A stretch of DNA of 40,630 nt from Methanothrix sp. (GTDB lineage: Archaea; Halobacteriota; Methanosarcinia; Methanotrichales; Methanotrichaceae). Of this stretch, positions 1,049 to 22,492 are shown in pieces (the stretch's first letter is position 1; every line of letters starts with the position of its first letter). The position numbers and the translations under genes were made by a program. The notes beneath the pieces are model-generated. The model was not told the origin of the DNA, ran no database searches, and saw nothing but the letters and a program-made list of their open reading frames with translations. The DNA lies in NCBI GenBank assembly GCA_028688175.1, contig JAQTYS010000003.1, positions 1 to 40,630 of the forward strand, written 5' to 3'.

Positions 1049-3391
1049 ATGCAATCAAATACAACAAGTAGCAATGAATCTCTTATGTCCTCTTTCCTGG
1101 AGCATCCGCGTCTATTGCCGCAAACTGTGGAGAAGCGGCTCTTCCAGTTGGATTTGGCCGCCAACGCTCTCAAGTCTTCCTGTCTTGTTGTAGTGCCCAC
1201 GGGCCTTGGCAAGACCGTCATAGCTCTCATGGTGGTTCTGGCTCGAATGGATATGGGCCGGATTCTTTTTCTGGCTCCTACCAAGCCGCTGGTGGAGCAG
1301 CATGCGGCTTTCTTGCAGCGCGTGCTCAAAGACAAAGATCTGGTCAGCATGATGACCGGAGAGAGAGCGCCGGAAAAAAGGATTGAATCCTGGAGACAGA
1401 GCCAGATCGTAGTCTCCACACCACAGGTGATCGAAAACGACCTTCTCTCTCGAAGGATCGATCTTGAGGACGTCTCCCTGGTGATATTCGACGAGGCGCA
1501 TCGAGCAGTGGGGAATTACGCTTATGTATACATCGCCGATCGCTATCATCGCGAGGCGAAGAATCCTAGGGTACTGGGGATTACCGCCAGTCCTGGCAGC
1601 CAGAGCGAGAAGATCGCCGAGATCTGCAGCAACCTTCATATTGAGACGATCCAGACCCGCACGGAAAATGATCCAGATGTCGCTCCATTTGTTCACGAGC
1701 GGGAGATAGAATGGGTGAAGCTTATAGTTCCCAAAGAGCTTCTGCAGATCCGCACGGCCATAGAGGAGCTGCTCTCTCGCAGAATCGATGATCTGAACCT
1801 ACTGGGCGTCAGTTCCGTCAGAATAGATGCCAAGTCCTCCAAGAAAGAGCTTCTTGGGCTGCAGGCCGCCTTCATGTCCTCGGCCAAGAACAAGGCAAAT
1901 AAATCAACATTTGCGGCCATATCACTCATGGCCGAGATCCTCAAATTGCATCATGCCGTTGAGCTGGCGGAGACGCAGGGACCGGATGCACTGGCCAGAT
2001 ATTTTCAGCGGCTGGATGGGGAAGCCCTCTCGCGAAGCGGTTCCAAAGCATCCCGCAGAATAATGCAAGACCCGAGTTTCAGGCAGGTAGTAGAAACCCT
2101 GCATAACCTGAAAGTGGAGCATCCCAAGCCTGCCGCAGTGCTGAGAATACTGCAAGAGCAGATTGCTGAGAAGCCGCACTCTCGCATCATGGTCTTTACC
2201 AACTATCGAGATACTGCCACCTCTCTCCTGAAGTTCTTGAAAGAGGATAATGCCATTCGAGCTGTGCGATTCGTGGGTCAGTCCAGCCGCGAGAATGATG
2301 AAGGGCTCAGCCAGAAGAAACAGGCAGATATTCTGCAGAAATTTCGGGCCGGTGATTTCAATGTCCTCATTGCTACATCGGTAGGCGAGGAGGGTATCGA
2401 CATTCCTGCTACCGATCTGGTCATCTTTTATGAGCCGGTTCCGTCCGAGATTCGCAGCATTCAGCGCAAGGGCAGGACCGGCAGGGCAAGGGCCGGCAGA
2501 GTAGTAGTATTAATGGCCAAGGGCACGCGCGATGAGGCTTATTACTGGATATCGGATCGCAAAGAAAAGACCATGAACCGGCAGATACGCGATCTGAGCG
2601 GTCCCGGCCAGGAATCGATTTTAAAGGAGAAAGATCCCAAAGAGCCCTTCCCCCGGCAGCTCCAGATAACTGAGGCGGTGGCCGGGCATACGGAGGCAGA
2701 CGAAAAGGATCTGCAAATTGAGATAGGAGAAGATGAGGAGAGCCCTGGAAAAATACTCGCCAAAGTCTTTGTGGACTTCCGGGAGAGAGAGATGGCAAAG
2801 CTTCTGGAGGCCCAGGGCATCGAGGTCACCGTCAAGAATCTGGATGTGGGAGACTATGTTATCAGTGATAAGGTGGCCATCGAACGCAAAACTGCCCAGG
2901 ATTTTGTATCCTCGATTATCGATCCACAAAGAAATTTATTTCGCCAGATGGCGGATCTGGCCAGGACTTATGATCGGCCTGTCTTGATTTTAGAGGGCAG
3001 GGATCTTTACACTTCGCAGATGAATGTCGCATCTATCCGCGGAGCTATGATCTCTGTGGCGGTGGACTACGGGGTCCCCATTATTCCCACGGAAGACCGG
3101 GATGAAACTGCCTCGGTTATTGCCCTGTTGGCTCGTAGAGAGATGCGAGAGGGTCGTGAGCCAAAGGTGCATGGTCACAAGACTGCCAGGACGCTTAAAG
3201 AGCAGCAGGAGTATTTGGTATCGGCCATTTCCAGTGTTGGGCCTACGGTCGCCAGGAATCTGCTCAAGCACTTCGGGTCTGTTGAGAAGATCATGACCGC
3301 TTCATCTGAGCAGCTACAAGAGGTAGAACTGGTGGGTCCGAAGATTGCCCAGCGCATTCGCGAGCTGGTAGGCGGGGAGTATAAAGGGTGA
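1049..3391 (+). CDS. hef: Hef-type helicase/nuclease (FANCM/XPF-like)
   Basis: 780 aa; Walker A PTGLGKT, DEAH box (VIFDEAH), helicase C motif (QRKGRTGRA), XPF-type nuclease motif (VAIERKTAQDF), C-terminal HhH (VGPTVARNLLKHFGSVEKI). Confidence 0.95.
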   Translation: MQSNTTSSNESLMSSFLEHPRLLPQTVEKRLFQLDLAANALKSSCLVVVPTGLGKTVIALMVVLARMDMGRILFLAPTKPLVEQHAAFLQRVLKDKDLVSMMTGERAPEKRIESWRQSQIVVSTPQVIENDLLSRRIDLEDVSLVIFDEAHRAVGNYAYVYIADRYHREAKNPRVLGITASPGSQSEKIAEICSNLHIETIQTRTENDPDVAPFVHEREIEWVKLIVPKELLQIRTAIEELLSRRIDDLNLLGVSSVRIDAKSSKKELLGLQAAFMSSAKNKANKSTFAAISLMAEILKLHHAVELAETQGPDALARYFQRLDGEALSRSGSKASRRIMQDPSFRQVVETLHNLKVEHPKPAAVLRILQEQIAEKPHSRIMVFTNYRDTATSLLKFLKEDNAIRAVRFVGQSSRENDEGLSQKKQADILQKFRAGDFNVLIATSVGEEGIDIPATDLVIFYEPVPSEIRSIQRKGRTGRARAGRVVVLMAKGTRDEAYYWISDRKEKTMNRQIRDLSGPGQESILKEKDPKEPFPRQLQITEAVAGHTEADEKDLQIEIGEDEESPGKILAKVFVDFREREMAKLLEAQGIEVTVKNLDVGDYVISDKVAIERKTAQDFVSSIIDPQRNLFRQMADLARTYDRPVLILEGRDLYTSQMNVASIRGAMISVAVDYGVPIIPTEDRDETASVIALLARREMREGREPKVHGHKTARTLKEQQEYLVSAISSVGPTVARNLLKHFGSVEKIMTASSEQLQEVELVGPKIAQRIRELVGGEYKG

Positions 3392-5977: not shown

Positions 5978-5986
5978 CTTTATAAG
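5978..5986 (+). promoter_or_regulatory. candidate archaeal TATA box for the downstream four-gene operon
   Basis: TTTATAAG preceded by purine-rich AAAAAGGC (BRE-like), about 55 nt upstream of the TTG start at 6038. Confidence 0.4.
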
Positions 5987-6037
5987 TAGGTATGCATGCG
6001 ATAGTATATATTCTGGATTTCATGGGGGTCAAAACAG

Positions 6038-9000
6038 TTGAAGAGATCAAAGGCAGAAATGTGCATTATAGCATCAAATGCATCAAATAATGTAAAAATA
6101 GGAAGATCCAATCACATACAATTACTATTAATTGTCAGCATAATTTCTGCTTTATCCCTTGTGACGCCCTGTACAGCCCAGAGCGGCTATGAAATCAGAA
6201 ATGCTGCGGTCACTCCGGAATATGGCTATGAGGATTTCACCTACACAGCTCAGATATGGATGAGCGAAGAGGCAGCAAGACAAGTAGGTTTGATTGCGGT
6301 CACAAAGTTCAGCATGAAATTGAATATCTACGACCAAAGCCAGTTGGTTTTCTCAGAGTCATCTCCCAGTCAAACGGGCATGAGCCAGACCTCATTTTCC
6401 TTCGGGCCCTACAGCTTCAAGGATCGGTTTGCCATTGCCAGAACCAGCAATGCCACCTTTGAATTCATCTTTTATGCAGGTGGTCAGCAGGTCGCCAAGA
6501 CGGCCAGAATAAAAGGCCCCATCGTCCAGCCGCCCACATTAACCGGCACTCCCAGCTTTGAGAAGAAGCCCTATTTCTTCCAGGGAATTTCCGTCTCTGC
6601 GGGATTCAAAGACCTGGAAGGGCTAAATCCCAAGCCCACATGTCATCTGGAGATCACGGGCCCCTTGGGTACGGCAGATTCGAGAAGCTGGACCACCGCC
6701 GATGTTTCTTGCCAGTCCTCGGGAAAGAGCACATACTCCTGCAGCGTCGCTGAGGACCTATCCAGTTACAGGACTGGAGGAGAATTCACTTTCAATCTGG
6801 TCTACAACAATCTCAAAGTCGACCCCTTAATCTACGGACCCTATAACATTTCTCTCCAGCCTTATAATCCCGCTCTGGAAAAAGTTACCATTCCTAGGCT
6901 GCTGGATTATACCAACTTCACCATTCAGGCTTACGTCAAAGACGCCGGGGCCAAGATGATAGGCGGCATCCCGGACGCAAGTGTGGCCAAGCTGATAATC
7001 AGCCATCCCCAAAAAGGAGAGATGGCTTATGAGTCATCTGAGCCGAAGATGCAGGGTAGCAGCCTGGTCTACGAATGGACCAATGATAATGTTCCGCCCC
7101 TCTTCAACCGCAGCGATGTGCAGCTGGCAAAGAATGCACCCTTCCAGGCCAAAGTGGTGTATAGGAACGAAAACTGGGATTATCAGGCCGAGAAGGCCAA
7201 TATCAGCTTCAGGGTAGTTGAAGAGATTCCCAAACTGGACATCCAATATCCTACAACCGTTTACGTGCGGGCCGGCGAGAGCACCACTCAGGATATAATT
7301 GCCACAGTTACCTTCTCCAAGGGCTCTGGAGACATGAATTTCATGCTGTCAGGCCCGGATCAGGACCTGAATTTAACGGAAAAGGGAATGTCTCTGGGAG
7401 GAAACCGTTATCAATACAAGTGGCAGGTCGCCTTCGATGACCGTCATATCAATAACAACTACACACTTGCATTATCCTTTGTACACCCTATGCTCGAAGG
7501 CGGAAGGTATGCCTTTGAGGACAAAACCATTAGAGTCTCACCGCTTTCAGTGAAGTTTACCCAGGCAGAGGTATCCCCAACCACAGGTCTATGGAACGAT
7601 AGCTACACATATTCTCTGAAGATCGATACCACTATCGTGCCTCTCGAGGTCCGCCTGCAGACCTATGATCCCTGTAGCAGCGAGTGGACGGATAAGGGCG
7701 CCCAGAAGGCAACCATTCAGTCATCCTGGCTGAACTGGACACTTCAGCCCTTCAGCTACGAATGCACAGAGATGCAACAGCTGGGTGCTAAGTTCCGTTT
7801 CAAGGCCAGCTTTGCCGGGAAAGATTATTTATCAAAGCCCTACCAGGGCCCGAACTTCAAAGGAGGCAATCCCGTCCTCATCTCGCTGGACAGCGACCCG
7901 GTGGTCTATGTCTCAGAGGGCAGTGATTCTTTCAGCAGCATTGCGGCTGTTGTGGAATACGGGGCAGGCCAGGGCCAGGCCGTCCTCCGCCTGCCGGAAA
8001 AGAGCATCGATGAAGCCAGCAAGGGCATAGCTGTGGGTGGCAACCGATACAGGTACGAATGGAGCCTGCCCTTCGATGAGGCTGATGTCGGCAAGAGCTT
8101 CAACTACACTATCACCTATAAGCATCCCAGCCTCGATGCCGATTTGCAACTCGCAGAAGAGACGATTGCCGTCAGATCGCTATCAATTGAATTTGGGAAA
8201 GCCAGCGTATCTCCAACAAGAGGCAAGTGGAATGATACATTTGTCTATTCTGTGACCGTAAGCTCCAGCATGGATGCAGCCGTCAAGCTGGAGGTTTTCA
8301 ACCCCTGCACTCATACCTGGGTTCAGAGAGCAACCGGCAGGGTCAAAGCTGGCGAAAGCGTGCTTGATATGCGAGCGCAGCCGCTCAGAGCCAAGTGCGC
8401 TGATTCTGAGAGTAAGGCAGCTAGTTTCCGCTATACAGCCAGCTATGCCGGCCAGACATCTGAGTCTGAAGTCAATTTTGGCCCGACCATCAACGGAGGC
8501 CAGCCCAAGCTGATATCATTTGAGATCGATGAGCCTGTGTTGTATGTGACAAAAGACAACCCTGCTTACCAGTCGGTCAAGGCTGTAGTGGATTTCCCGG
8601 GAGAAAAGGATGCGATGCAGCTTACCATAACGGGCCTGAACAAGGCTCCAATTACGGGGGAGATGAATAGCGTCTACTTGGGTGCAACTCAGTATTTATA
8701 TACCTGGACTAAGGAGTTCGGGCTCGCTGATGTCGGCAACTACACAATCAGCATTAAAAACACCAATCCAAGCGCCGCCGGCGGCATGGTTGCATCCGCA
8801 GGGACTATGATGGTAGCCGACCAAGTAGCCAGCTCCGAATTGGAGCCGAAGGCCATAGGAGATGTAAAATTCCTGCCCGTTCTGTTCGTCTCTTCTGAGA
8901 AGGGAGCCAGCCAGACGTTCAGTGCTGAGGTCTACTCTCCGGGTGGCAAGGGAACTATGACCCTGGATCTTACCGGTGTGGATAAAAACAAAGAGTTAGA

Positions 9001-10168
9001 CATGGCGGTCACCGATCTCGGTGCCAACCGGTATAGATATGATTACACGGAAGAATTTGATGCCACCAATGCCGGCAACAACTACCTGTTCTCCCTTGAT
9101 TATCAATTACAGGGCAGGAGCTATTCCCTGTTTGATGATCACATCATGCAAGTGGCGCTGGAAGGAACGGAGCCTGAACCTATATGGGAGCCCAAGCTAA
9201 TCTTAGAGTATGACACAACACTCTATGTGCCGGCTGGAGGAAAATCAGACCAGCTCATCCATGCCACCATAAATTACACGGAGAGTGGAGGCATCCTCAA
9301 GTTGAATCTGACCGGCCCCTCCAAGAATTTCGGCGAGGACCTGAGCGACAGGGCCATTGGAGATAATAAATATCTTTACGAGTCTGTTATACCCTTTGAG
9401 GATAAAGATATAGGAAACAGCTTCACCATATCTCTGGCCTTCAATCACTCCGGATTAGGAGACTACCGGTTTGCCGACCATTATATGAGGGTTCTTAAGA
9501 AGGCCCCTATAAGCTCAGGCACAGGCGGAACCGGAAAAGATGCTAAGACTGGTGGAGTCTTTGACGAGAGCACAGTGACGGTAATCGGCAATGTGACGCC
9601 GGCAATAGGCGTCATCCAGGCCTGGGATGAGAAAGACCCGCTTCATGCATTAACCTATACCCTGAGGATTCAGAACTGGAGTTCAGAACAGATTCCATGG
9701 GTTGAACTGTCTGTAAGGCCGAATGGAACCGATCAGCCCTGGATGATCGTGGGAGGCAAGAAGAGATTCAATCCCGCCACAGGAAGCGTTAGCTGGACTC
9801 TTAAGCCCTTCTGGGAGACGCCTTTCCTGGGCCCGGCCCAGTATAGGTTCTTGATTGACGGGGCTGAGACCCAGACATTTGAGGGACCGGAGATCATGGC
9901 CGTGATATCCAATGCTAAAGACAGCCTAAACGGAAAAGTTCATGACTTCTGGGCAACGGTCAATTCCTCTGAGAACCTGACAGTATGCCTGGTGGGTGGA
10001 GACAATGCAATTCCCGAACTGATCAAGACCTGGACTACCAAGGGCCAGTGCCAGGATTACCGCTTCAGCCTGGGCGAGCAGACGTTTAAATGGGAAATTC
10101 CAGAGGCACAAACGTCGCCATACTACGATTTTGATATTCAGAGAAAGACAGGGGAGCTGGTGCAATGA
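6038..10168 (+). CDS. large secreted surface protein with tandem Ig-like repeats
   Basis: 1376 aa; signal peptide (LLLIVSIISALSLVTPCTAQS). At least five repeats of 'VxYV...ATVxF..G.G.M.L.L.G......LGGNRYxYxW...FD..DxGN.YTxSxxHP', and a second repeat type 'VSPTxGxWNDxYxYSxx...NPC...'. TTG start; ATG alternative at 6059. Confidence 0.85.
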   Translation: MKRSKAEMCIIASNASNNVKIGRSNHIQLLLIVSIISALSLVTPCTAQSGYEIRNAAVTPEYGYEDFTYTAQIWMSEEAARQVGLIAVTKFSMKLNIYDQSQLVFSESSPSQTGMSQTSFSFGPYSFKDRFAIARTSNATFEFIFYAGGQQVAKTARIKGPIVQPPTLTGTPSFEKKPYFFQGISVSAGFKDLEGLNPKPTCHLEITGPLGTADSRSWTTADVSCQSSGKSTYSCSVAEDLSSYRTGGEFTFNLVYNNLKVDPLIYGPYNISLQPYNPALEKVTIPRLLDYTNFTIQAYVKDAGAKMIGGIPDASVAKLIISHPQKGEMAYESSEPKMQGSSLVYEWTNDNVPPLFNRSDVQLAKNAPFQAKVVYRNENWDYQAEKANISFRVVEEIPKLDIQYPTTVYVRAGESTTQDIIATVTFSKGSGDMNFMLSGPDQDLNLTEKGMSLGGNRYQYKWQVAFDDRHINNNYTLALSFVHPMLEGGRYAFEDKTIRVSPLSVKFTQAEVSPTTGLWNDSYTYSLKIDTTIVPLEVRLQTYDPCSSEWTDKGAQKATIQSSWLNWTLQPFSYECTEMQQLGAKFRFKASFAGKDYLSKPYQGPNFKGGNPVLISLDSDPVVYVSEGSDSFSSIAAVVEYGAGQGQAVLRLPEKSIDEASKGIAVGGNRYRYEWSLPFDEADVGKSFNYTITYKHPSLDADLQLAEETIAVRSLSIEFGKASVSPTRGKWNDTFVYSVTVSSSMDAAVKLEVFNPCTHTWVQRATGRVKAGESVLDMRAQPLRAKCADSESKAASFRYTASYAGQTSESEVNFGPTINGGQPKLISFEIDEPVLYVTKDNPAYQSVKAVVDFPGEKDAMQLTITGLNKAPITGEMNSVYLGATQYLYTWTKEFGLADVGNYTISIKNTNPSAAGGMVASAGTMMVADQVASSELEPKAIGDVKFLPVLFVSSEKGASQTFSAEVYSPGGKGTMTLDLTGVDKNKELDMAVTDLGANRYRYDYTEEFDATNAGNNYLFSLDYQLQGRSYSLFDDHIMQVALEGTEPEPIWEPKLILEYDTTLYVPAGGKSDQLIHATINYTESGGILKLNLTGPSKNFGEDLSDRAIGDNKYLYESVIPFEDKDIGNSFTISLAFNHSGLGDYRFADHYMRVLKKAPISSGTGGTGKDAKTGGVFDESTVTVIGNVTPAIGVIQAWDEKDPLHALTYTLRIQNWSSEQIPWVELSVRPNGTDQPWMIVGGKKRFNPATGSVSWTLKPFWETPFLGPAQYRFLIDGAETQTFEGPEIMAVISNAKDSLNGKVHDFWATVNSSENLTVCLVGGDNAIPELIKTWTTKGQCQDYRFSLGEQTFKWEIPEAQTSPYYDFDIQRKTGELVQ

Positions 10169-11694
10169 ATGGCAAACTCATTTCCATTCTGATTGTGTTT
10201 GCCTTGCTACTTTCGGTGCAAAATGTTGTGGGACCGGCTACACAATCTGCCGGATCATCAGGAGGCAGCGGAGGCGGTGGGGGTGGTGGCGGCAGCAAGT
10301 CGGTTGATATCGACAGGTTGCTCAAGGCCGTGGAGGACGCAAAGAAGAATAAGCCGGCCAAGCTCGAAGAACTGAAGACGGTCCTGTGGAAGGACCCTAT
10401 CACCAGTGATGAATACAAAATGCCCACTGTGCTCATGTATTACAAAGGAAACAATACCACAGTCAGCCGAAACCAGCTTCTGGAGATCATAACAGTTGCC
10501 ACTAATAACAATCCTCTGGAGATGCGCCGTATGCTGGACCTTTATCTGGAGGTAAAGGAGCCGGGTTCGAATAAGTGGGAGCGCATCAACTCCTGGCCGG
10601 AGAAGATCCAGACCAATGAGTACGATGAGAAGACCAACACTACCTTAAGAATCTGGGGCATGCTGCCCTCTTTTGCATACCTTAAGGATGTGGGAGAAGC
10701 CAGGGTAAGGGTAAATGTAAGCGACGGTGTCAATAAATGGAGTACATCAGGCTACAACGGATTGAAGCCGCCTTATTACTCGGAGCTGGTCTTCAATGTT
10801 ACCAACAGCCTGCCGGTCATGAGCGACTTCAATATTACTCCATCAGGCCTTGTGAGATATAATGATCCCATCGAGTACAAGGCTAATATCGAGGATGCTG
10901 ATGGAGACCTGCTCAATGTGACGCTGCATATCCTTGATGAGAACGGCGTTGAGCTGCAGAATGTTACACTGAATATAAAGCCGGGTCCTGTGAGTTTCAA
11001 GGCTAATGAATATGGATTCTTCAAAGAAGCGGATGCAGGCAAGAACTTTACCTACTACTACAGCTATGATGATGGGATTGATTTCGTCAGCCAAGATCCT
11101 GCCGATCCGTTAAAAGGACCCGATATCAAAAAAGGCCCCAAACTCTCCGTGGATAAGTTGGGCTTTTCCGCCACCAGCGAGAATTATTATTGGTGGGAGA
11201 AGTATGGATTCAACGTTAGGGCAAAGAATCTGAACCCGGAAGAGTACGACGTAACCTTCACTCTGAGCACCAGGACCGGTGACAATGAATGGAATACAGT
11301 GGAGACAAAGAAGGTTGGAATTGGACCAGATCCGGTCGAGGTGAACTTCAATGATACCAAGCCATTCCAAGTCACCGATGCCGGGCAGACTTTCTATTAC
11401 AGAGTAAAGTACTCCGAATATGATCAGAGCGGCAAAGATAGCATGGAGCAGACAGGTGTGCTGATCAATGCCAAGATCGTGCCCTACAGCATTTATAGTC
11501 CGGTAATGATCCTGAATTTGGTCCCGATGCTGATCCTGATCATAATGGGCAGCCTTTTCATCGAGAGAAAGCTTAAGAAAGGAATTGAGGCTCATGAAGG
11601 CACTCCTGGAAACGCAGCAGGCAAGAAAGGCAAGAAACAGAAAAGCGGCGAAAGCATCGTCGACAACACACTCAAAATGCTGAGGAGGAACTAG
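10165..11694 (+). CDS. type I membrane-anchored extracellular protein with Ig-like domains and cytoplasmic basic tail
   Basis: 509 aa; N-terminal signal, poly-Gly linker (SGGSGGGGGGGGS), one C-terminal TM (MILNLVPMLILIIMGSLFI) followed by a Lys-rich tail. Overlaps the previous gene by ATGA. Confidence 0.8.
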   Translation: MNGKLISILIVFALLLSVQNVVGPATQSAGSSGGSGGGGGGGGSKSVDIDRLLKAVEDAKKNKPAKLEELKTVLWKDPITSDEYKMPTVLMYYKGNNTTVSRNQLLEIITVATNNNPLEMRRMLDLYLEVKEPGSNKWERINSWPEKIQTNEYDEKTNTTLRIWGMLPSFAYLKDVGEARVRVNVSDGVNKWSTSGYNGLKPPYYSELVFNVTNSLPVMSDFNITPSGLVRYNDPIEYKANIEDADGDLLNVTLHILDENGVELQNVTLNIKPGPVSFKANEYGFFKEADAGKNFTYYYSYDDGIDFVSQDPADPLKGPDIKKGPKLSVDKLGFSATSENYYWWEKYGFNVRAKNLNPEEYDVTFTLSTRTGDNEWNTVETKKVGIGPDPVEVNFNDTKPFQVTDAGQTFYYRVKYSEYDQSGKDSMEQTGVLINAKIVPYSIYSPVMILNLVPMLILIIMGSLFIERKLKKGIEAHEGTPGNAAGKKGKKQKSGESIVDNTLKMLRRN

Positions 11695-11696
11695 GA

Positions 11697-12377
11697 ATGG
11701 ATCTTGATCTGTCAATGGTAATTGACATCCTATTTCCCGCAGGCACATTGCTTTTGGCTATATTGTTGATCCTGGCAGCAGTCCTACATATCAATAACTT
11801 AAATCGGGTTTATAAATTGATGGCAGCATTGCGGCATGAGATGAAGGGATCTAAAAACGAATCCAAAGATTACTCTAAAGGTGGCTATAAAGCGCTTCTT
11901 TATCAGGAGATGACAACCCCGCAAGGAATAAACTTCACGGCACTGGCACTGGCTGCGTGGATAATGCTCTTTGTGGCCCTGGCCTATCTTTACCTGTTGG
12001 TTCCAACAATACTTCCATTCAGTTACATGGATATATCAGATCTGGCCTCCTCCTCAGGAGGGTTCTTCATCTTTGGCATTCTTGTCGCATGCCTTGTTGC
12101 AGGGGTAATCATACTTCTCGATAAACTTCCTCAAGACCATAGAGAATTGAAGCTAACTGAGCTTTACAGCTTTTATTATCTTTCCAAATCTACAAAGAAG
12201 GTGATCGGAATGACTATAATCACCCTATGCATCTCTGTGCTGCTCTCTGCCTATATTGGGACCATATATCCAAGCTATTCGCTGCCAGTAGAACTATTGA
12301 GTTTGATTCTTGTGCTTGGATCTGCGGGCATCCTTGTCATGCCGATTTTTAAGGAAGCCTGGGAGGCGAGAAGATGA
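11697..12377 (+). CDS. multispanning membrane protein (about 5 TM)
   Basis: 226 aa with about five hydrophobic spans; starts 2 nt after the upstream stop. Confidence 0.8.
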   Translation: MDLDLSMVIDILFPAGTLLLAILLILAAVLHINNLNRVYKLMAALRHEMKGSKNESKDYSKGGYKALLYQEMTTPQGINFTALALAAWIMLFVALAYLYLLVPTILPFSYMDISDLASSSGGFFIFGILVACLVAGVIILLDKLPQDHRELKLTELYSFYYLSKSTKKVIGMTIITLCISVLLSAYIGTIYPSYSLPVELLSLILVLGSAGILVMPIFKEAWEARR

Positions 12378-14032
12378 AATTATGCATTGTTGGAATAGGC
12401 GGAGCCGGAGGAAAAATAACCAAGGAATTTTTAGGAAATGAGGATCTGGATTCAAAGCTACTCTCACGCATAACAGAAGCGGAATATCTCTCTCCAGGTA
12501 AGATAAAGGGAATATGGCTTGAGGCAGATAAAAACGATGCCAAAAATGTTAAACCGCACTTTTTCGGTGACATGATGGAAGGATGCTACCCCTGCTATTA
12601 CATCCCTCATGACGCAGTGGACGACGGATGTGCCGTTCACGTTGCTGTGCGCGAAAAATACGGCTATGATGTGAAGAGACAGGGCTTTGTCAGAGACGCC
12701 CAATACCTGAAGGCTATATTTGAGATCTTTGATACTGATAAAGAGATCCAATCTCTTGTTGACCAGACAATGAAAAACGAATCAATGGGAGGAACCGAAG
12801 CTAATAATGGTGCACTATCCGCTTCCAATCCCATCTTCGATAATGCCTGGAATTCTATAAGGGATTTCACAACATTGGGAGAAGGGGAGTGCGATGGGAT
12901 CCTCTTTGTGGTCTCCTTTGGCGGGGGAACAGGCACCGGATTCATCAATCCGATCATCAACAATATCAGAGAAATGGGCAAGGCAGAATACCCGGTTTTC
13001 ACATTGGGCATATTGACAGAACCTGGTGACTATGCAGACAAAGCTCAGTTTTCCAAGAGCGCAAGAAGGAATCTGGCTGCAATTAGTGCCATTTACGACC
13101 TTTTAACCAATGGCAACGGTGCCAATGGCGTCATTATCGTCGATAATGAGACACTATTGGAAAGATATGGAAATGATTACATTTCTGCCAACAAATTCAT
13201 TCATGAGATGATGCAACCACTGGTGGCGGCACGAGACTATCCAGAAGAGGTCCCTCCTGCCCAGGCAGTTGCACATCATGCATTAAAAGGCCTCTCCAAG
13301 CCACCTATATTTGTTCCACTCTTCGCCTCGCTGCCCAGAAGCTCCAATCCAGAAGAAGGATTGATCAAAAAGGCGCTGAGCGAAGAGGGAAGGCTCTTTG
13401 GCTGCACTCCTGATAAAGCTGACTTTGCTTTCGTCTTCTGCAGAGGCTTCATTGATTCAGATAAGATAAGAGCGATTCTTTCAAGAGAAACGGGCATACC
13501 GCCGGAAAACATATGGCCAGCCAGGAAGATGGGCGAAGGAAATAACGAGATCCTTATTCTTCTGAGAAATCCCTATGGAGGAGATGCCAACGCCTACAAG
13601 AAGGTGGGCACGCTGGAAAATCGATTTTGCATGGTGATCGCCCAGGCTTTGCAGTACATAAAAGAGCATCCAGAAGATCTGTTTTATGAAGGCAAACAAG
13701 AAGAAAAGGACAAAAAAGATGATAAGCCAGTTGAACAGGTCAAGCTGACAGCTCTCTCCAAGAAGGCTCTGAAAACGTTCTTCTTTGGGGCGGATGGCTC
13801 CAGTCAGACGAGTGGCTTAGTCTTCGAGTTGAATAAGGCTAGAAAGAGAATTAAGGATGGTGAAAAGCCTTTCTTCATCAATCCCTTGCGTATCTTCCAA
13901 AAGGAATCCATTGCTTCGGATGATCTAAAGAAATCCCAAGGACCAACAAAGAGTGACGATGAAATTGCCAGCATAGTTGATGCCAAGATAATTGAGAAGC
14001 TGACCGAAATGGGATTGATAAAGAGACTATAA
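12374..14032 (+). CDS. divergent FtsZ/tubulin-superfamily GTPase
   Basis: 552 aa; N-terminal MKLCIVGIGGAGGKI (FtsZ-type GxGGAG), tubulin signature FGGGTGTGF, downstream TLGILTEPGDYADKAQFSKSARRNLAAI. C-terminal charged linker (KQEEKDKKDDKP) plus extra domain. Overlaps the upstream gene by ATGA. Confidence 0.8.
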   Translation: MKLCIVGIGGAGGKITKEFLGNEDLDSKLLSRITEAEYLSPGKIKGIWLEADKNDAKNVKPHFFGDMMEGCYPCYYIPHDAVDDGCAVHVAVREKYGYDVKRQGFVRDAQYLKAIFEIFDTDKEIQSLVDQTMKNESMGGTEANNGALSASNPIFDNAWNSIRDFTTLGEGECDGILFVVSFGGGTGTGFINPIINNIREMGKAEYPVFTLGILTEPGDYADKAQFSKSARRNLAAISAIYDLLTNGNGANGVIIVDNETLLERYGNDYISANKFIHEMMQPLVAARDYPEEVPPAQAVAHHALKGLSKPPIFVPLFASLPRSSNPEEGLIKKALSEEGRLFGCTPDKADFAFVFCRGFIDSDKIRAILSRETGIPPENIWPARKMGEGNNEILILLRNPYGGDANAYKKVGTLENRFCMVIAQALQYIKEHPEDLFYEGKQEEKDKKDDKPVEQVKLTALSKKALKTFFFGADGSSQTSGLVFELNKARKRIKDGEKPFFINPLRIFQKESIASDDLKKSQGPTKSDDEIASIVDAKIIEKLTEMGLIKRL

Positions 14033-14096: not shown

Positions 14097-14681
14097 ATGC
14101 TCAGTAGGTTTCAGAATTTCACAATATTGGTTCTGGCGGCAATGGCTGCCTTCTCAACAACTGTATTCGTAGCATCGGATACTGCCCTTTCCGTTGATTG
14201 GAATAGCTACAGTCCTGCGCATGCCGTGGGCTCAGGAGATGACGACTGGTGGATGACATATCCTGATCAGAATGAAAACTCAGGCAAGACAGTAGAACAT
14301 CCGGACTGGATAGTGAAAGCTCTCAAGGAAAAGCCGGTGCTCATCCTCATTCATAGCAGCAACTGCGTGCCCTGCCTGACCCAGACGCCAAGAATTAAAG
14401 CTGCAGCTAATAGCTTTAGCGGCGATCTAGCATACTACGATATACTGGGAGAAGGAGACAGCCTGCAAGAGGCAGTTGATATCCTAGATGTCTATGATCC
14501 GTACGGCATGGGAAAGCCGGTCGTCCCAACGACCATCTTCATCACCCTGGCCAAGGGCCCGGACGGGAAGGTGGGTATCGTCTGGCGCAGCGAAGTTGAT
14601 GCTATGAGCGAAGAGCGGATCGACTCCTATGTAAAGGATGCCATCTACTATTACCAGCAGAATAGTGCCGCTTGGGCCTGA
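14097..14681 (+). CDS. secreted thioredoxin-like protein
   Basis: 194 aa; N-terminal hydrophobic anchor; thioredoxin-like CxxC (LILIHSSNCVPCLTQTPRIK). Confidence 0.8.
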   Translation: MLSRFQNFTILVLAAMAAFSTTVFVASDTALSVDWNSYSPAHAVGSGDDDWWMTYPDQNENSGKTVEHPDWIVKALKEKPVLILIHSSNCVPCLTQTPRIKAAANSFSGDLAYYDILGEGDSLQEAVDILDVYDPYGMGKPVVPTTIFITLAKGPDGKVGIVWRSEVDAMSEERIDSYVKDAIYYYQQNSAAWA

Positions 14682-14694
14682 CCTGGATCTGAGA

Positions 14695-16101
14695 GTGATA
14701 CTGATAATCGCCCAACCTAGCAAAAAAAGGCTGCCATCGGCAGCTCTTATCCTCTTTTTCGCTCTGGCTATTCAGGCCCTCTTTATCAGCCCTGCTTTTG
14801 CCGCTGATGCCATCAAGGCCCCGCAGTTTTCTGCCACTGGAGTTGACGGCAAGAACTTCTCGCTCTCTGACTTTTCCGGCGCGCCCCTAATCCTTCATAT
14901 CACCAACATCGAGATACCGCTCTGTGTGGAATGCGAAGAGTCCCTGAAAGGACAGGTAGAAGAGCTGGCAAGACTCAAGGCTGCGCATCCGGCGGTCCAG
15001 ATCGCCACATTGAACCTGAGGAAAAATTCCTACTCGCGTGACGGCAAGTCCCTTGCTGAGAAGTGGTGGAAGGTCAATATCACCTGGCCCTGGGCTGAGG
15101 ATATTGAGCCTTACACTATCGCCAGCAAGTATCTGGACTACTGGAATGTGAGAGGCGGCTCCTCCAACCCCACACTCCTTCTCATAGACAAAGATGGTAA
15201 TATCGCTGTAGTCTATCACGTCTACCGGGTAGGGGAAGGAGTGCAAGACGGCGTGCAAAGTAGCGAGAAGCTTTACCAGAAGCTGCAAGACGTGAACGGC
15301 GGAGCGTGGAAGGGCCTGGAAGGAGAGGTCTTCCGGCAGGATGTCTCCGCCTTTGGTATGTTCTTGCTGGGCATATTAACGTCACTTGCTCCCTGCTCCA
15401 TAGCTCTTATGATCGCTGTGTTCTCCTATGTTATGACCATAAGACGAAAGGATGAATACCTGAGAAAGAGCGTGTCTACCTCAAGAGAGGGCTTTATGAT
15501 CGGCATTGCCTTCACCTTTGGCATGGCCGCAGTATTCTTTGTGCTGGGGCTGTTCATCTCTCAGGTGGGCCTGTTCATAAGAGATTCCAGGGTCTTCGAC
15601 CTGATCGCCGGTATTATCATGATACTTCTAGGCATCAGCAACATGAAGCCATTGGAAGAGATCCTGGAGCCCGTCACATCTCGAATTCGGCGCTATCGTG
15701 GAGAAGGAGAGTACTGTGAGACCAGGAAAAGCCTGCTGCAAAGGTCGGTTGAGGCATCCGTTGCTCTATTCAAGCACTCCTCATTCATTGGCGCCTTCAC
15801 GCTCGGCATATTCTTCGCCCTGGGATGGGCACCCTGTGCTCTATCCATGGTGTTGCCGGTATTGATCTGGCTGGCCTCGCAAAATATCACTCCTCTGGCG
15901 GGAGGTGTTATGCTCTTCATCTTCGGAATCGGGCATGGCGTGCCCATCATTCCCATTGCCACATTCTCTCGGGCAGTGGGAGGCAGAATCGGAGAGAAAT
16001 ACGTCTCCATCGGGGCTTGGACCACCAAATTCTTCGGGCTGCTGGTGATTGTGGTGGGCGTGGTTTATGCAGTGAGATATGCCGGGATCTTGCTTTGGTA
16101 A
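14695..16101 (+). CDS. DsbD/CcdA-like thiol-disulfide transporter with N-terminal TlpA/peroxiredoxin-like domain
   Basis: Signal peptide, AdoAhpC/TlpA-like fold start (APQFSATGVDGKNFSLSDFSGAPLILH), CVEC motif, then CcdA-type membrane domain with LAPCS and WAPCALSMVLP. The ORF opens at 14638, but an in-frame GTG at 14695 fits the signal peptide better. Confidence 0.8.
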   Translation: MILIIAQPSKKRLPSAALILFFALAIQALFISPAFAADAIKAPQFSATGVDGKNFSLSDFSGAPLILHITNIEIPLCVECEESLKGQVEELARLKAAHPAVQIATLNLRKNSYSRDGKSLAEKWWKVNITWPWAEDIEPYTIASKYLDYWNVRGGSSNPTLLLIDKDGNIAVVYHVYRVGEGVQDGVQSSEKLYQKLQDVNGGAWKGLEGEVFRQDVSAFGMFLLGILTSLAPCSIALMIAVFSYVMTIRRKDEYLRKSVSTSREGFMIGIAFTFGMAAVFFVLGLFISQVGLFIRDSRVFDLIAGIIMILLGISNMKPLEEILEPVTSRIRRYRGEGEYCETRKSLLQRSVEASVALFKHSSFIGAFTLGIFFALGWAPCALSMVLPVLIWLASQNITPLAGGVMLFIFGIGHGVPIIPIATFSRAVGGRIGEKYVSIGAWTTKFFGLLVIVVGVVYAVRYAGILLW

Positions 16102-18094: not shown

Positions 18095-19540
18095 CTACTT
18101 CTTCCCCGCCATCTCCAGAACCCTTGCAGCCTGCGCCCCTGCCTCCAGGATATCCAGGTTCTTGGTGATGAGCTTGGGCTTCTTGGCAAAAGTCTCCCGG
18201 AAGGCATTGCCATAAGCCTCATGGGGCAGACCCAGCTTTCCCGCCTGCATCAAGGCCCCGAGCATAGCCGTATTGGCCGCCTGCGGGGTGCCGCGCTCCG
18301 TGGCGATCCCAGTGGCCGGAACTGATATGGCTCTAACACCCTCCGGTGCCTGGAACTGGCCGACTAAAGAGTCATAGAGAATCACTCCACCTTTCTTGAC
18401 AGTCGGCGCAAACTTCTCCAGAGACGGACGGTTGAAAGCCACCAGCACATCTGGGTGGTCCACCACAGGCGAGCCGATGGGCCGGCCGGAAATGACCACA
18501 GAGCAGTTAGAGGTTCCTCCCCTCTGCTCCGGCCCGTATTCGGGATAGTAGGACACATAGCGTCCGCTGCCAAATCCCGCCTGGGTCAGGGTCAGGCCCA
18601 TGCTCAGCACACCCTGTCCTCCAAAGCCGGCGATCTTCACGCCCTTGGTCACAAACTCCGGGTCCTCCTGGAATGAAATGCAAATCCCGCTCTCACAGCC
18701 AAATGTCTTATCCAGGGATTCTAGAGAGAAGTCACTCTCAGGCCTGGTTATGGCCTGGGCCTCTGCGGATCTGTCCCGGAATCGCTTTAGCGGAAACTCC
18801 TTTTCCATCTGCTCATTGACGAAATTGGCAATAGCCTTGGCATCCATCCTCAGGATAGTGGGGCATGGGGAAAGCAGCTCCACAAAGGCATATCCTTTCT
18901 TGTCCCTCTGAATCTCCAGAGCCTTCTTGACCGCCCGGCGTGCTTTTCTGATATGCTCGATGTCCGAGAGCGAAGCGCGCTCGATGAACACCGGCGCCTT
19001 TAGCGTATCCAGCAGTTCGCAGATGTGAATGGGATAACCCTGCTCGCTGGCAATGCGCCCGCCTGGCGTGGTGGCCGTTACTTCTCCAATCAAGGTAGTA
19101 GGTGCCATCTGGCCACCGGTCATGCCGTAGACGCTGTTGTTGACGAAGAATACAGCCAGCTTCTCTCCCCGATTGGCAGCCTGAATGGTCTCGTTCAGTC
19201 CAATCGAGGCCAGATCGCCGTCCCCCTGATAGGAGATGACGATGGCATTATCTTCTGACCGCGATATGCCTGTAGCGATAGCCGGAGCGCGACCATGTGC
19301 CGCTTGCATGTGACCGCAATCCAAATAGTAGTAGGCAAAAACGGCGCATCCCACCGGGCTGATTACAACGCACCTATCCTGGATGCCAAGGTCTGCCATG
19401 GCCTCACCAATGAGCTTATGCAAAATTCCGTGGCCACAGCCAGGACAGTAATGGGTGGCAGTAGGTGCGGCTCCTCCCTTCCTGGGAAACTGTGCATATA
19501 TGCCGGGATGTCCTCCGATCACCTTCTCAATTGCTGCCAT
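18095..19540 (-). CDS. 2-oxoacid:ferredoxin oxidoreductase, fused beta (TPP-binding) and gamma subunits
   Basis: N-terminal [12 protein letters not shown] / [12 protein letters not shown] (TPP enzyme beta), C-terminal [20 protein letters not shown]...[21 protein letters not shown] (gamma). Confidence 0.92.
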
Positions 19541-19542
19541 CT

Positions 19543-20586
19543 CTAAGCCACCTCCCTTATCTTCTCTAAGACTGATTCCATGCCGACCAAATTTCCTCCG
19601 TAGCGGCAGACCAGCTCTACCGGCATGCAGCCGGTGGCAAGGCGAATGTCCTCACGCATCTGTCCGTCGCTCATCTCCACGGAGATGAACTTGCAACCGC
19701 GCTCTGCGAGAGAGCCCATCTCTTTTTCAGGGAAGGGGAAGAGAGTAATGGGCCGGAAGAGACCGGCCTTGATGCCCTCCTTTCGTGCAGCATCCACTGC
19801 GGACCTCGCGATCCTGCTGCTGATGCCGTAGGAGACGAGGACGACGCGGGCATCCTCCAATCGATAGCCCTCCCATGCCACTTCGTTCTCTTTTATGCGT
19901 TCATACTTCTCTTGCAGCTTGTAGTTGTGCCTCTCCATCTCATCGAAATTGAGCATAATTGAGGTTATCAGATTGCCTCTAGTCTCGGCTCGACCGGCTA
20001 CTGCCCAGGTGGTGTCAATGCTGGGCGTGAAGGCCTCTTTGGGAAACTCCAGAGGCTCGACCATATGCCCCAGAACTCCGTCGGCCAAAACCACTACCGG
20101 ATTTCTATACTTAAAGGCCAGATCGAACCCCTTGCGAGTAAGGTCGCACATCTCCTGCACGCTTGCCGGGGCTAAAACGATGTTGTGATAGCAGCCATGC
20201 CCACCACCCTTGCAGGCTTGATTGTAGTCCGATTGCTCCGGCCCGATGTTGCCTAGGCCCGGTCCCGCTCGACAGATATCGACGATAACGCAGGGAAGCT
20301 CTGCACCGGCGATATAAGTTATTCCCTCCTGCTTGAGGCTCATGCCCGGGCCGGATGATGCCGCAAGAACGCGATGCCCTGCACCTGCCGCCCCGTAGAC
20401 CATGTTGATTGCTGCCTCTTCCGATTCAGCTTGCACGAACTTGCGACCCACTTTGGGAAAATTGCGAGATGCTTCATGCAATATCTCGCTGGCGGGTGTA
20501 ATGGGGTAGCCAAAGAAGCAGTCACAGCCTGCATAAAGTGCACCCACGATCACTGCTTTGTTTCCATCAATTAACTGAGACGCCAT
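19543..20586 (-). CDS. 2-oxoacid:ferredoxin oxidoreductase alpha subunit (VorB/KorA-like)
   Basis: [66 protein letters not shown]; 2 nt gap to the downstream beta-gamma gene. Confidence 0.92.
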
Positions 20587-20590
20587 TTTC

Positions 20591-22492
20591 TTAGTTCTCC
20601 TCTACTTTCTTCTCTTTCTGGGGCACATGAACCTCAATGGCCAGAGGCTCAGGACAGGTGTAATAACATGCTCCGCAGCCAATGCAGCCGTCACCTGAAT
20701 AAAGCACATAGTGATAGCCTCGGGAATTCAGCTCTTCACCCATCTTCAATACATCCGCGGGACATGCCTCAATACACCGCTCGCAAGCTTTGCATTCCAG
20801 GGTATTGATGACCGGATAGGGCTTGTCTTTATCCCTGATCTCCACCCGCCGGATCTTCCCGCTTATGGTCTTGGGCAGCTCTTCAACGAACTCGATGATT
20901 CTCGGGTACTTGTAGGGTGCAGTGACCTTCTTTACATGATCTTGCAGCACCTTTTTCAGCTCATCGGATGAGGTGTATCCTTTGGCCAGGACTATGGTTG
21001 CTTTTACCACCTGTCCTCGAATGGCGTCAGGCACACCGGTAATGGCTACCTCCATCACCGATGGGTGAGACATGAGGGCACTTTCCACCTCAAAAGGCCC
21101 AACCCGGTATCCGGAGCTCTTGATCATATCATCCGTACGGCCTATGAACCAGAAGAATCCGTCCTCATCCCGCCAGGCGGTGTCTCCCGTATGGTAGTAA
21201 TCATCATGCCAGGTGCTCTTGGTCTTGTCCGGATCGGAATGATAATCGGTGAAAAGGCCGACAGGCTTTCCCTTGTCCGTCTTGATCACAATCTCGCCTT
21301 CTTCACCCACCTCGCATAATTTGTCGTTCTTGCCCACCAATACAATATCAAACCCAGGTGCAGGCTTTCCCATAGAACCTGGTTTGGGATTCATCCAGGG
21401 ATAATTGGCAATGCAGACCACGGTCTCCGTCTGGCCGAATCCTTCCATAAGCCGCAGACCGGTGGTCTTAAGGAAGCTCTCATAAACAGACGGGTTAAGC
21501 GGTTCTCCTGCCGTGACCGCATATTTTAGCCGGGAGAAGTCATATCTGGACATATCACTCTTGATCATGAATCGGAAGATCGTCGGTGGAGCACAAAAGG
21601 TCGTCACCCCGTATTTGCCCATCTCGTCCATCATCTTCCCGGCATCGAATCGATCATAATCGTAGACGAAGACCGCCGAGCCGGCCAGCCATTGGCCGTA
21701 GATCTTGCCCCAGGCGCATTTAGCCCATCCCGTATCCGCCACGGTGTAATGAAGCCCATCATCCTCCACATTCTGCCAGTACTTGGCAGTAAGAATATGG
21801 CCCAGGGGATATGTCTGATCATGTTTGACCATTTTTGGATATCCCGTAGTTCCGGAGGTAAAGTACCCGAGAAGAATATCTTCATTTCTCGTCGCCTGAT
21901 CTCCGGTCGGGCGGACGAAATCTGCCGATGCCTCCGCCAGCTCCTTATTGAAATTTATCCAGCCATCGCGCGTCTGATCAGCTTTTCCTACCAGGACTTT
22001 AACCAGAGAAATATTTCCCAAACTCTTGTGGGCCTCATCGAACTCGCCCGGAACCCCGTTCTCAGCTATGCAGACGATCATCTTCAGATCGCCCTTCTTG
22101 ATGCGATAAACGAAGTCCTTGGCCTTGAGCATATGCGTAGAAGGAATAGAGATTGCCCCGATCTTGTTCAAGCCCACCATGCATACCCAGAACTCCCAGC
22201 GGCTCTTGAGGGTGAGCATGACCGTATCCCCTTTTTTCAGTCCATATCTAGAAAAGAGATTTGCGGCCTTGTCACTCAGGGTCTTGAGATCTTTGAAGGT
22301 GATGATCAACTCTTCACCGTGATCATTGCACCAGACCAGGGCCCGTTTATCTGGATATTCTGCGGCATAAGCATCGACTACATCGTAGGCAAAATTGAAG
22401 TTCTCGGGAACCAGGATCTTAAGATTTTCTTTAAAATCCTCATATGACTTGTAATCGACCCGAGAGACGAACTTAGGCAATAATGACGTCAT
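20591..22492 (-). CDS. AMP-forming acyl-CoA synthetase fused to a C-terminal 2x[4Fe-4S] ferredoxin domain
   Basis: AMP-binding motif [59 protein letters not shown]-terminus [12 protein letters not shown] ... [14 protein letters not shown]. Confidence 0.93.

Follow-up and report, generated by a model that had tools for sequence, protein, structure and literature searches.

Operon Layout in the Window

The window, by which we mean the whole 40,630-nt stretch of DNA analyzed here, is contig C174 of a Methanothrix metagenome-assembled genome (MAG) of 2.93 Mb in 404 contigs. Between positions 6038 and 14032 it carries four genes, which we call A, B, C and D; these and the other features of the operon and its immediate flanks lie on the plus strand. 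Gene A (6038–10168) begins with a TTG codon and encodes a secreted repeat protein of 1376 aa. Gene B (10165–11694) encodes a secreted Ig/cadherin/PKD-like protein of 509 aa with one C-terminal transmembrane (TM) segment, gene C (11697–12377) a membrane protein of 226 aa with five TM segments, and gene D (12374–14032) a CetZ-like protein of 552 aa with the GTPase fold of the tubulin superfamily. An earlier note on this DNA had described the four genes as coupled, either through ATGA overlaps or across a gap of 2 nt, and its open frames, positions and lengths were all reproduced. Specifically, A and B overlap by 4 nt (ATGA), as do C and D, and B and C are separated by 2 nt. Two further elements were spotted by eye: a TATA-like box (TTTATAAG, 5979–5986), which is a candidate archaeal promoter for the operon, and GGGGGTC (6024–6030), a candidate ribosome-binding site located 7 nt 5' of the TTG start of A.

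Hydropathy assigns A one N-terminal segment (residues 29–47), B a signal-like segment plus the TM segment at residues 448–466 (11506–11562), C five TM segments and D none. Thioredoxin-like and DsbD-type genes follow 3' of D (14097–16101). Because such genes adjoin D only in Methanothrix-type genomes, they were rejected as members of the conserved module and are considered to lie outside of it.

Gene D Encodes a New Member of the Tubulin Superfamily

D scores above the cut-off of the Pfam Tubulin family (PF00091; 37.2 versus 33 bits, E 4.8e-9), with the same outcome in a whole-genome search. An AlphaFold2 model based on 20 homologues (pTM 0.81, mean pLDDT 79) has a tubulin fold. Among PDB entries, Foldseek ranks CetZ2 from Haloferax volcanii first (4b45; E 3.6e-12 over 455 columns, with a target-length TM-score of 0.66); numerous tubulins and a Methanosaeta CetZ (3zid) rank lower. 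The match to CetZ takes in the C-terminal domain as well as the GTPase domain. Fold and Pfam score alike thus bear out the initial description of D as a tubulin/FtsZ-like protein.

Profile–profile comparison also points to CetZ (E 5.8e-13 with 15 sequences and 3e-10 with four, spanning T4 to the C-terminal domain). The values for FtsZ2 (E 3.2e-6), FtsZ1 (E 2.1e-4) and an FtsZl1 protein (E 2.5e-4, over only 55 columns) are far weaker. CetZ is therefore the nearest relative of D by both profile and fold, and the T4, T6 (VDNQ) and H7 elements of D align with those of CetZ. In a phylogenetic tree, the D clade (support 100/100) and the CetZ clade (100/99) are each monophyletic, but the branch leading to D measures 3.77 changes per column, and for this reason the tree does not place D relative to CetZ and FtsZ. 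An origin of D from CetZ is likely judging from the profiles, although the tree does not show it.

Both nucleotide-binding motifs that had been claimed for D are present, the T1 loop as GIGGAGG (residues 7–13; 12392–12412) and the T4 signature as GGGTGTG (residues 183–189; 12920–12940). The T1 and T4 loops are conserved in D homologues, as is the DN of T6, and among the 20 that were aligned GGGTGTG and DN are invariant. By comparison, the T7 loop has diverged. In the corresponding stretch (residues 287–300; 13232–13273), which lacks the acids that FtsZ and CetZ carry there, the FtsZ sequence NLDFADV and the CetZ sequence VTDLGDF fall opposite PPAQAV of D, an alignment-dependent placement, and position 298 is alanine in 19 of the 20 sequences. 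The T7 acids are a catalytic trait and do not define the superfamily, to which D belongs by fold and Pfam score. Their absence leads us to predict that D hydrolyzes GTP slowly or not at all.

Several features set D apart from its known relatives. It is ~170 aa longer than CetZ, with a large insert, specific to this family, that separates T1 from T4; it also has an altered C-terminal region and is encoded together with A, B and C. Where the CetZ proteins of Methanosarcinia have SGGTGSS, D has GGGTGTG; this CetZ signature and the Asp-Leu-Gly-Asp of the CetZ T7 loop, both invariant in 12 CetZ sequences, were not found in D. FtsZ1 and FtsZ2 share with D the superfamily fold and GGGTGTG, but D lacks their T7 NxDxxD, and it reaches only 20.9 bits with the FtsZ model TIGR00065, whose equivalog score is 295, so D is not an FtsZ. 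Phage and plasmid tubulins (PhuZ, TubZ) were also rejected, given their weaker fold matches and the conserved chromosomal site of the module.

Membership in FtsZl1, one of the FtsZ-like families of Makarova and Koonin that had been raised as a possibility for D, was rejected. FtsZl1 proteins resemble D in being diverged FtsZ–tubulin proteins that have inserts between T1 and T4 and are linked to membrane and surface genes. However, D has a clear T6–H7 region and a CetZ-like C-terminal domain, and it scores 19.8 bits against the cut-off of 27 for Tubulin_2 (PF13809), a family with which the CetZ of the same genome scores 21.8. The reported FtsZl1 partners are a vWA protein, a kinase, a GTPase and an OmpA-type protein (Makarova and Koonin 2010; PMC2875224), none of which was found among the neighbors of the module by inspection of neighborhoods and Pfam searches. 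Since the window genome has three further Tubulin-family genes (two FtsZ and one CetZ), D is an additional member. D and its homologues form a family new to the tubulin superfamily, accompanied by conserved surface proteins of their own.

Conservation and Distribution of the Module

Of 50 Methanotrichaceae genomes, 46 yielded D in a single-sequence search, and among the 33 better ones it was found in 32. Six-frame profile searches of 51 loci recovered A-B-C-D in the same order and on the same strand. C and B are present wherever the contig reaches, and A precedes B in all but one of 42 readable loci, the exception (L056) being a locus where the B gene is incomplete as well. The linkage of D to the other three genes, on which the earlier note had staked its proposal, therefore extends to every D locus where the contig permits a reading, save for that one missing A. 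The four genes are still together where D has diverged to ~33% identity, which argues that their linkage is not due to chance. Loci often share their upstream neighbors, an RNase HII gene and one for a class V aminotransferase.

When 240 genomes of the class were searched, the B profile detected 43 genomes, all of them Methanotrichaceae. Likewise, complete or near-complete genes exceeded 380 bits with the D profile only in this family; outside it, scores were 20–43 bits, at genes of ordinary FtsZ or CetZ length. Within these 240 genomes, the module was not found beyond Methanotrichaceae. Neither B nor D is present in G016, whose assembly is 99% complete with a contig of 3,008,626 bp and which we take to be very probably M. 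soehngenii GP6; its syntenic RNase HII and aminotransferase genes are kept, and other genes follow. The confinement of B to Methanotrichaceae, together with the loss of both genes between retained flanks, indicates that the module is both inherited and lost as a unit. Gene order and co-inheritance are thus established. The apparent lack of D in another genome (G002) is an assembly gap, because its short contig has A at the usual position.

A survey of 397 genomes of the phylum found D outside Methanotrichaceae only on one doubtful contig, from the MAG UBA148. This 14.8-kb contig (L157) has a complete A-B-C-D set, whose D is 57% identical to a Methanothrix-type D, and the module occurs in one of four genomes of the genus. 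With this identity and this distribution, misbinning and transfer cannot be told apart. A single-sequence scan of genome contigs with D, of a kind that may omit near relatives, reported no relatives. The corresponding profile scan returned, among named records, Methanothrix and other Methanotrichaceae, as well as one very short match in Paceibacterota (39% over 64 residues, E 2e-4).

Some loci depart from the usual arrangement. In L070 (genome G030), A is ~56% identical to A of the window, whereas B, C and D are only ~29–36% identical and the DsbD neighbors are the same, which looks like recombination inside the operon. Three genomes (G001, G010 and G012) have two B–D module copies on separate contigs. 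A partial second copy of D lies behind D in L154 (7487–7978), and the D gene of L069 (8721–10436) is split by a stop. In distant genomes (L150, L157 and L035), related large surface proteins that are ~42–44% identical recur beside the module.

Partner Proteins A, B and C

A has an N-terminal signal segment and is without a C-terminal anchor. It had been described as a giant Ig-repeat protein, and its 1376 aa in the window fit the first part of this description, but homologues range from 537 to 1460 aa and the size is thus lineage-specific. No Pfam Ig family scored above its cut-off in A. The Ig repeats are supported indirectly, by the profile similarity of A to B (E 5.6e-7), in whose family Ig-like domains are supported in other members (Big_9, E 3.9e-5; PKD; Cadherin_4).

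For B, the predicted outward-facing portion and single TM segment agree with what had been proposed, but the basic cytoplasmic tail is limited to the Methanothrix-type clade. Most B homologues end a few residues past the membrane, with ERRFYR or a similar sequence, and the tail was accordingly rejected as a universal tether.

C matches its initial description as a 5-TM protein of 226 aa. It has no known family or relative by sequence, and its predicted fold has no known match in the PDB. A loop of C (12165–12197) contains residues Y157, Y160, S163 and K167, each kept in 16 or 17 of 17 sequences, and is predicted to be cytosolic from the positive-inside pattern. Because this loop is conserved and B lacks a conserved long tail, C is the better candidate for docking of D, and D may dock on C rather than on the tail of B.

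CetZ Is Paired with an Ig-Like Protein in Methanosarcinia

A simpler arrangement involving a tubulin-family gene was encountered across the class. At 54 of 55 loci (L167, L168, L171, L188–L203 and L205–L242), a canonical CetZ gene lies 8–159 nt downstream of a gene for an Ig-like (DUF11/CARDB) single-TM protein. This count comprises all 15 loci read first and 39 of 40 read further, two of which belong to families that lie outside the class. The partner proteins are secreted and have one C-terminal TM segment and a conserved short cytosolic end such as YRRHRQYRY; in the three that were scanned, DUF11/CARDB-type domains exceeded the Pfam cut-off. As far as the passages found in a CetZ survey go, nadC, nadA and nadX are the CetZ neighbors in Methanosarcinales, and the main text there does not discuss an Ig-like upstream gene (PMC9856176).

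Like the four-gene module, the CetZ pair consists of a secreted Ig-like protein with a C-terminal TM segment followed by a tubulin-family gene. Unlike the module, it has two genes instead of four and is without a 5-TM protein. This common layout makes a link from tubulin to the surface the natural reading of each system. Profile comparison detected no homology between B and the CetZ partners, and the parallel may therefore be convergent or have arisen twice. The Ig-like single-TM protein is a candidate membrane anchor for CetZ. The class-wide pair thus offers a concrete candidate for the contact between CetZ and the membrane, and genetics exist in Methanosarcina.

A Proposed Transmembrane Machine and Its Alternatives

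The module suggests an undescribed machine that links the inside of the cell to the outer wall, for which four specific genes can now be named as candidates. In the reading we favor, to which we would give an even chance, A-B-C-D is one transmembrane machine in which a D scaffold is tied via C and B to A and braces the envelope. D, a diverged CetZ-like tubulin paralogue, would bind GTP and, at the inner membrane face, assemble into a scaffold or filament. Its docking on C would use the conserved cytosolic loop of C, C would hold or organize the single-pass Ig protein B, and B would bind the secreted Ig-like A. Such a chain would run from a tubulin scaffold in the cell interior to the coat outside, and could position or brace the envelope (S-layer plus sheath) of these filamentous cells. 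The missing T7 acids predict that D acts as a scaffold that is stable or gated by nucleotide, and not as a treadmilling ring. The operon geometry, the intact A-B-C-D set at D loci, its inheritance and loss as a unit, the fold of D, the invariant GGGTGTG and DN, the conserved cytosolic loop of C, and the precedent of CetZ and its Ig-like partner all support this machine, whereas the physical complex, the polymerization of D, the docking surface and the cellular role are what we infer. A tubulin-family protein that is tied to surface proteins family-wide, and is without the usual catalytic loop, would widen the repertoire of the superfamily.

A more ambitious form of this proposal, which we advance only tentatively, is that the module is an archaeal analogue of the integrin–cytoskeleton connection, with an internal tubulin-family filament joined via C and B to the Ig-repeat protein A. 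The module would then be a second, specialized version of a CetZ and Ig anchor pair that was ancestral in Methanosarcinia and gives CetZ its membrane anchor.

In FtsZ and CetZ, hydrolysis across the protofilament contact needs the very T7 acids that D lacks. This absence, along with the family-specific T1–T4 insert and changed C-terminal region, would also suit a D that does not polymerize. Such a GTP-binding sensor or switch might report nucleotide state via C to B and A, and so control how surface proteins are secreted, processed or displayed. We consider this unlikely, because the fold of D matches CetZ and tubulin over ~455 columns that include the C-terminal domain.

Disulfide chemistry has been connected with sheath hoops, and sheaths occur in lineages other than Methanotrichaceae. 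G016, very probably M. soehngenii GP6, would be a classic sheathed filament former, and it is without the module. These points bear on the idea that the four genes make up machinery of the sheath or plugs, which would place new hoops or seal the ends of cells in sheathed filaments; we judge this idea to be distinctly improbable. The absence of the module from the M. soehngenii-like G016 is evidence against an essential role in the sheath and does not sit easily with a stable tie to this rigid structure. Moreover, D was not found in the 397 phylum genomes except for Methanotrichaceae and the one doubtful contig, even though sheaths are more widespread, and the adjacent DsbD and thioredoxin-like genes are seen in one clade only. 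Still, the module is present in almost all Methanotrichaceae, and the Methanotrichales surveyed all carry sheath proteins (PMC11576556), a generality that lends these genes some relevance to the sheath but also sharpens the case against it posed by G016. That study found no associated assembly gene and no sheath-assembly protein is known (PMC11576556), which, together with the adjoining DsbD-type genes in Methanothrix, leaves room for a sheath-specific role. The archaeal SH proteins of Methanothrix share with A and B secretion and the organism family, and some have chains of Ig-like domains, but by description they have an amyloid-like core and a cluster of their own (PMC11576556).

A role in division can also be conceived, with D as an accessory to FtsZ1 and FtsZ2 and with A and B marking the septal surface. 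Although D belongs to the tubulin superfamily and filamentous cells divide inside a common coat, we think this very unlikely, since FtsZ1, FtsZ2 and CetZ are present besides D, also where D is missing, and the neighborhoods examined hold no division genes next to the module. Least probable of all is co-expression without one machine, in which A and B serve at the surface, as adhesins or in the coat, and a separate function falls to C and D; the great variation in the length of A would fit, but strict co-occurrence, fixed order and tight spacing across deep divergence weigh against it.

The window also holds ordinary genes on either side of the operon, among them an ERCC4/helicase (Hef-like) gene (1049–3391) and a cluster for a 2-oxoacid ferredoxin oxidoreductase and an AMP-binding enzyme (18095–22492).
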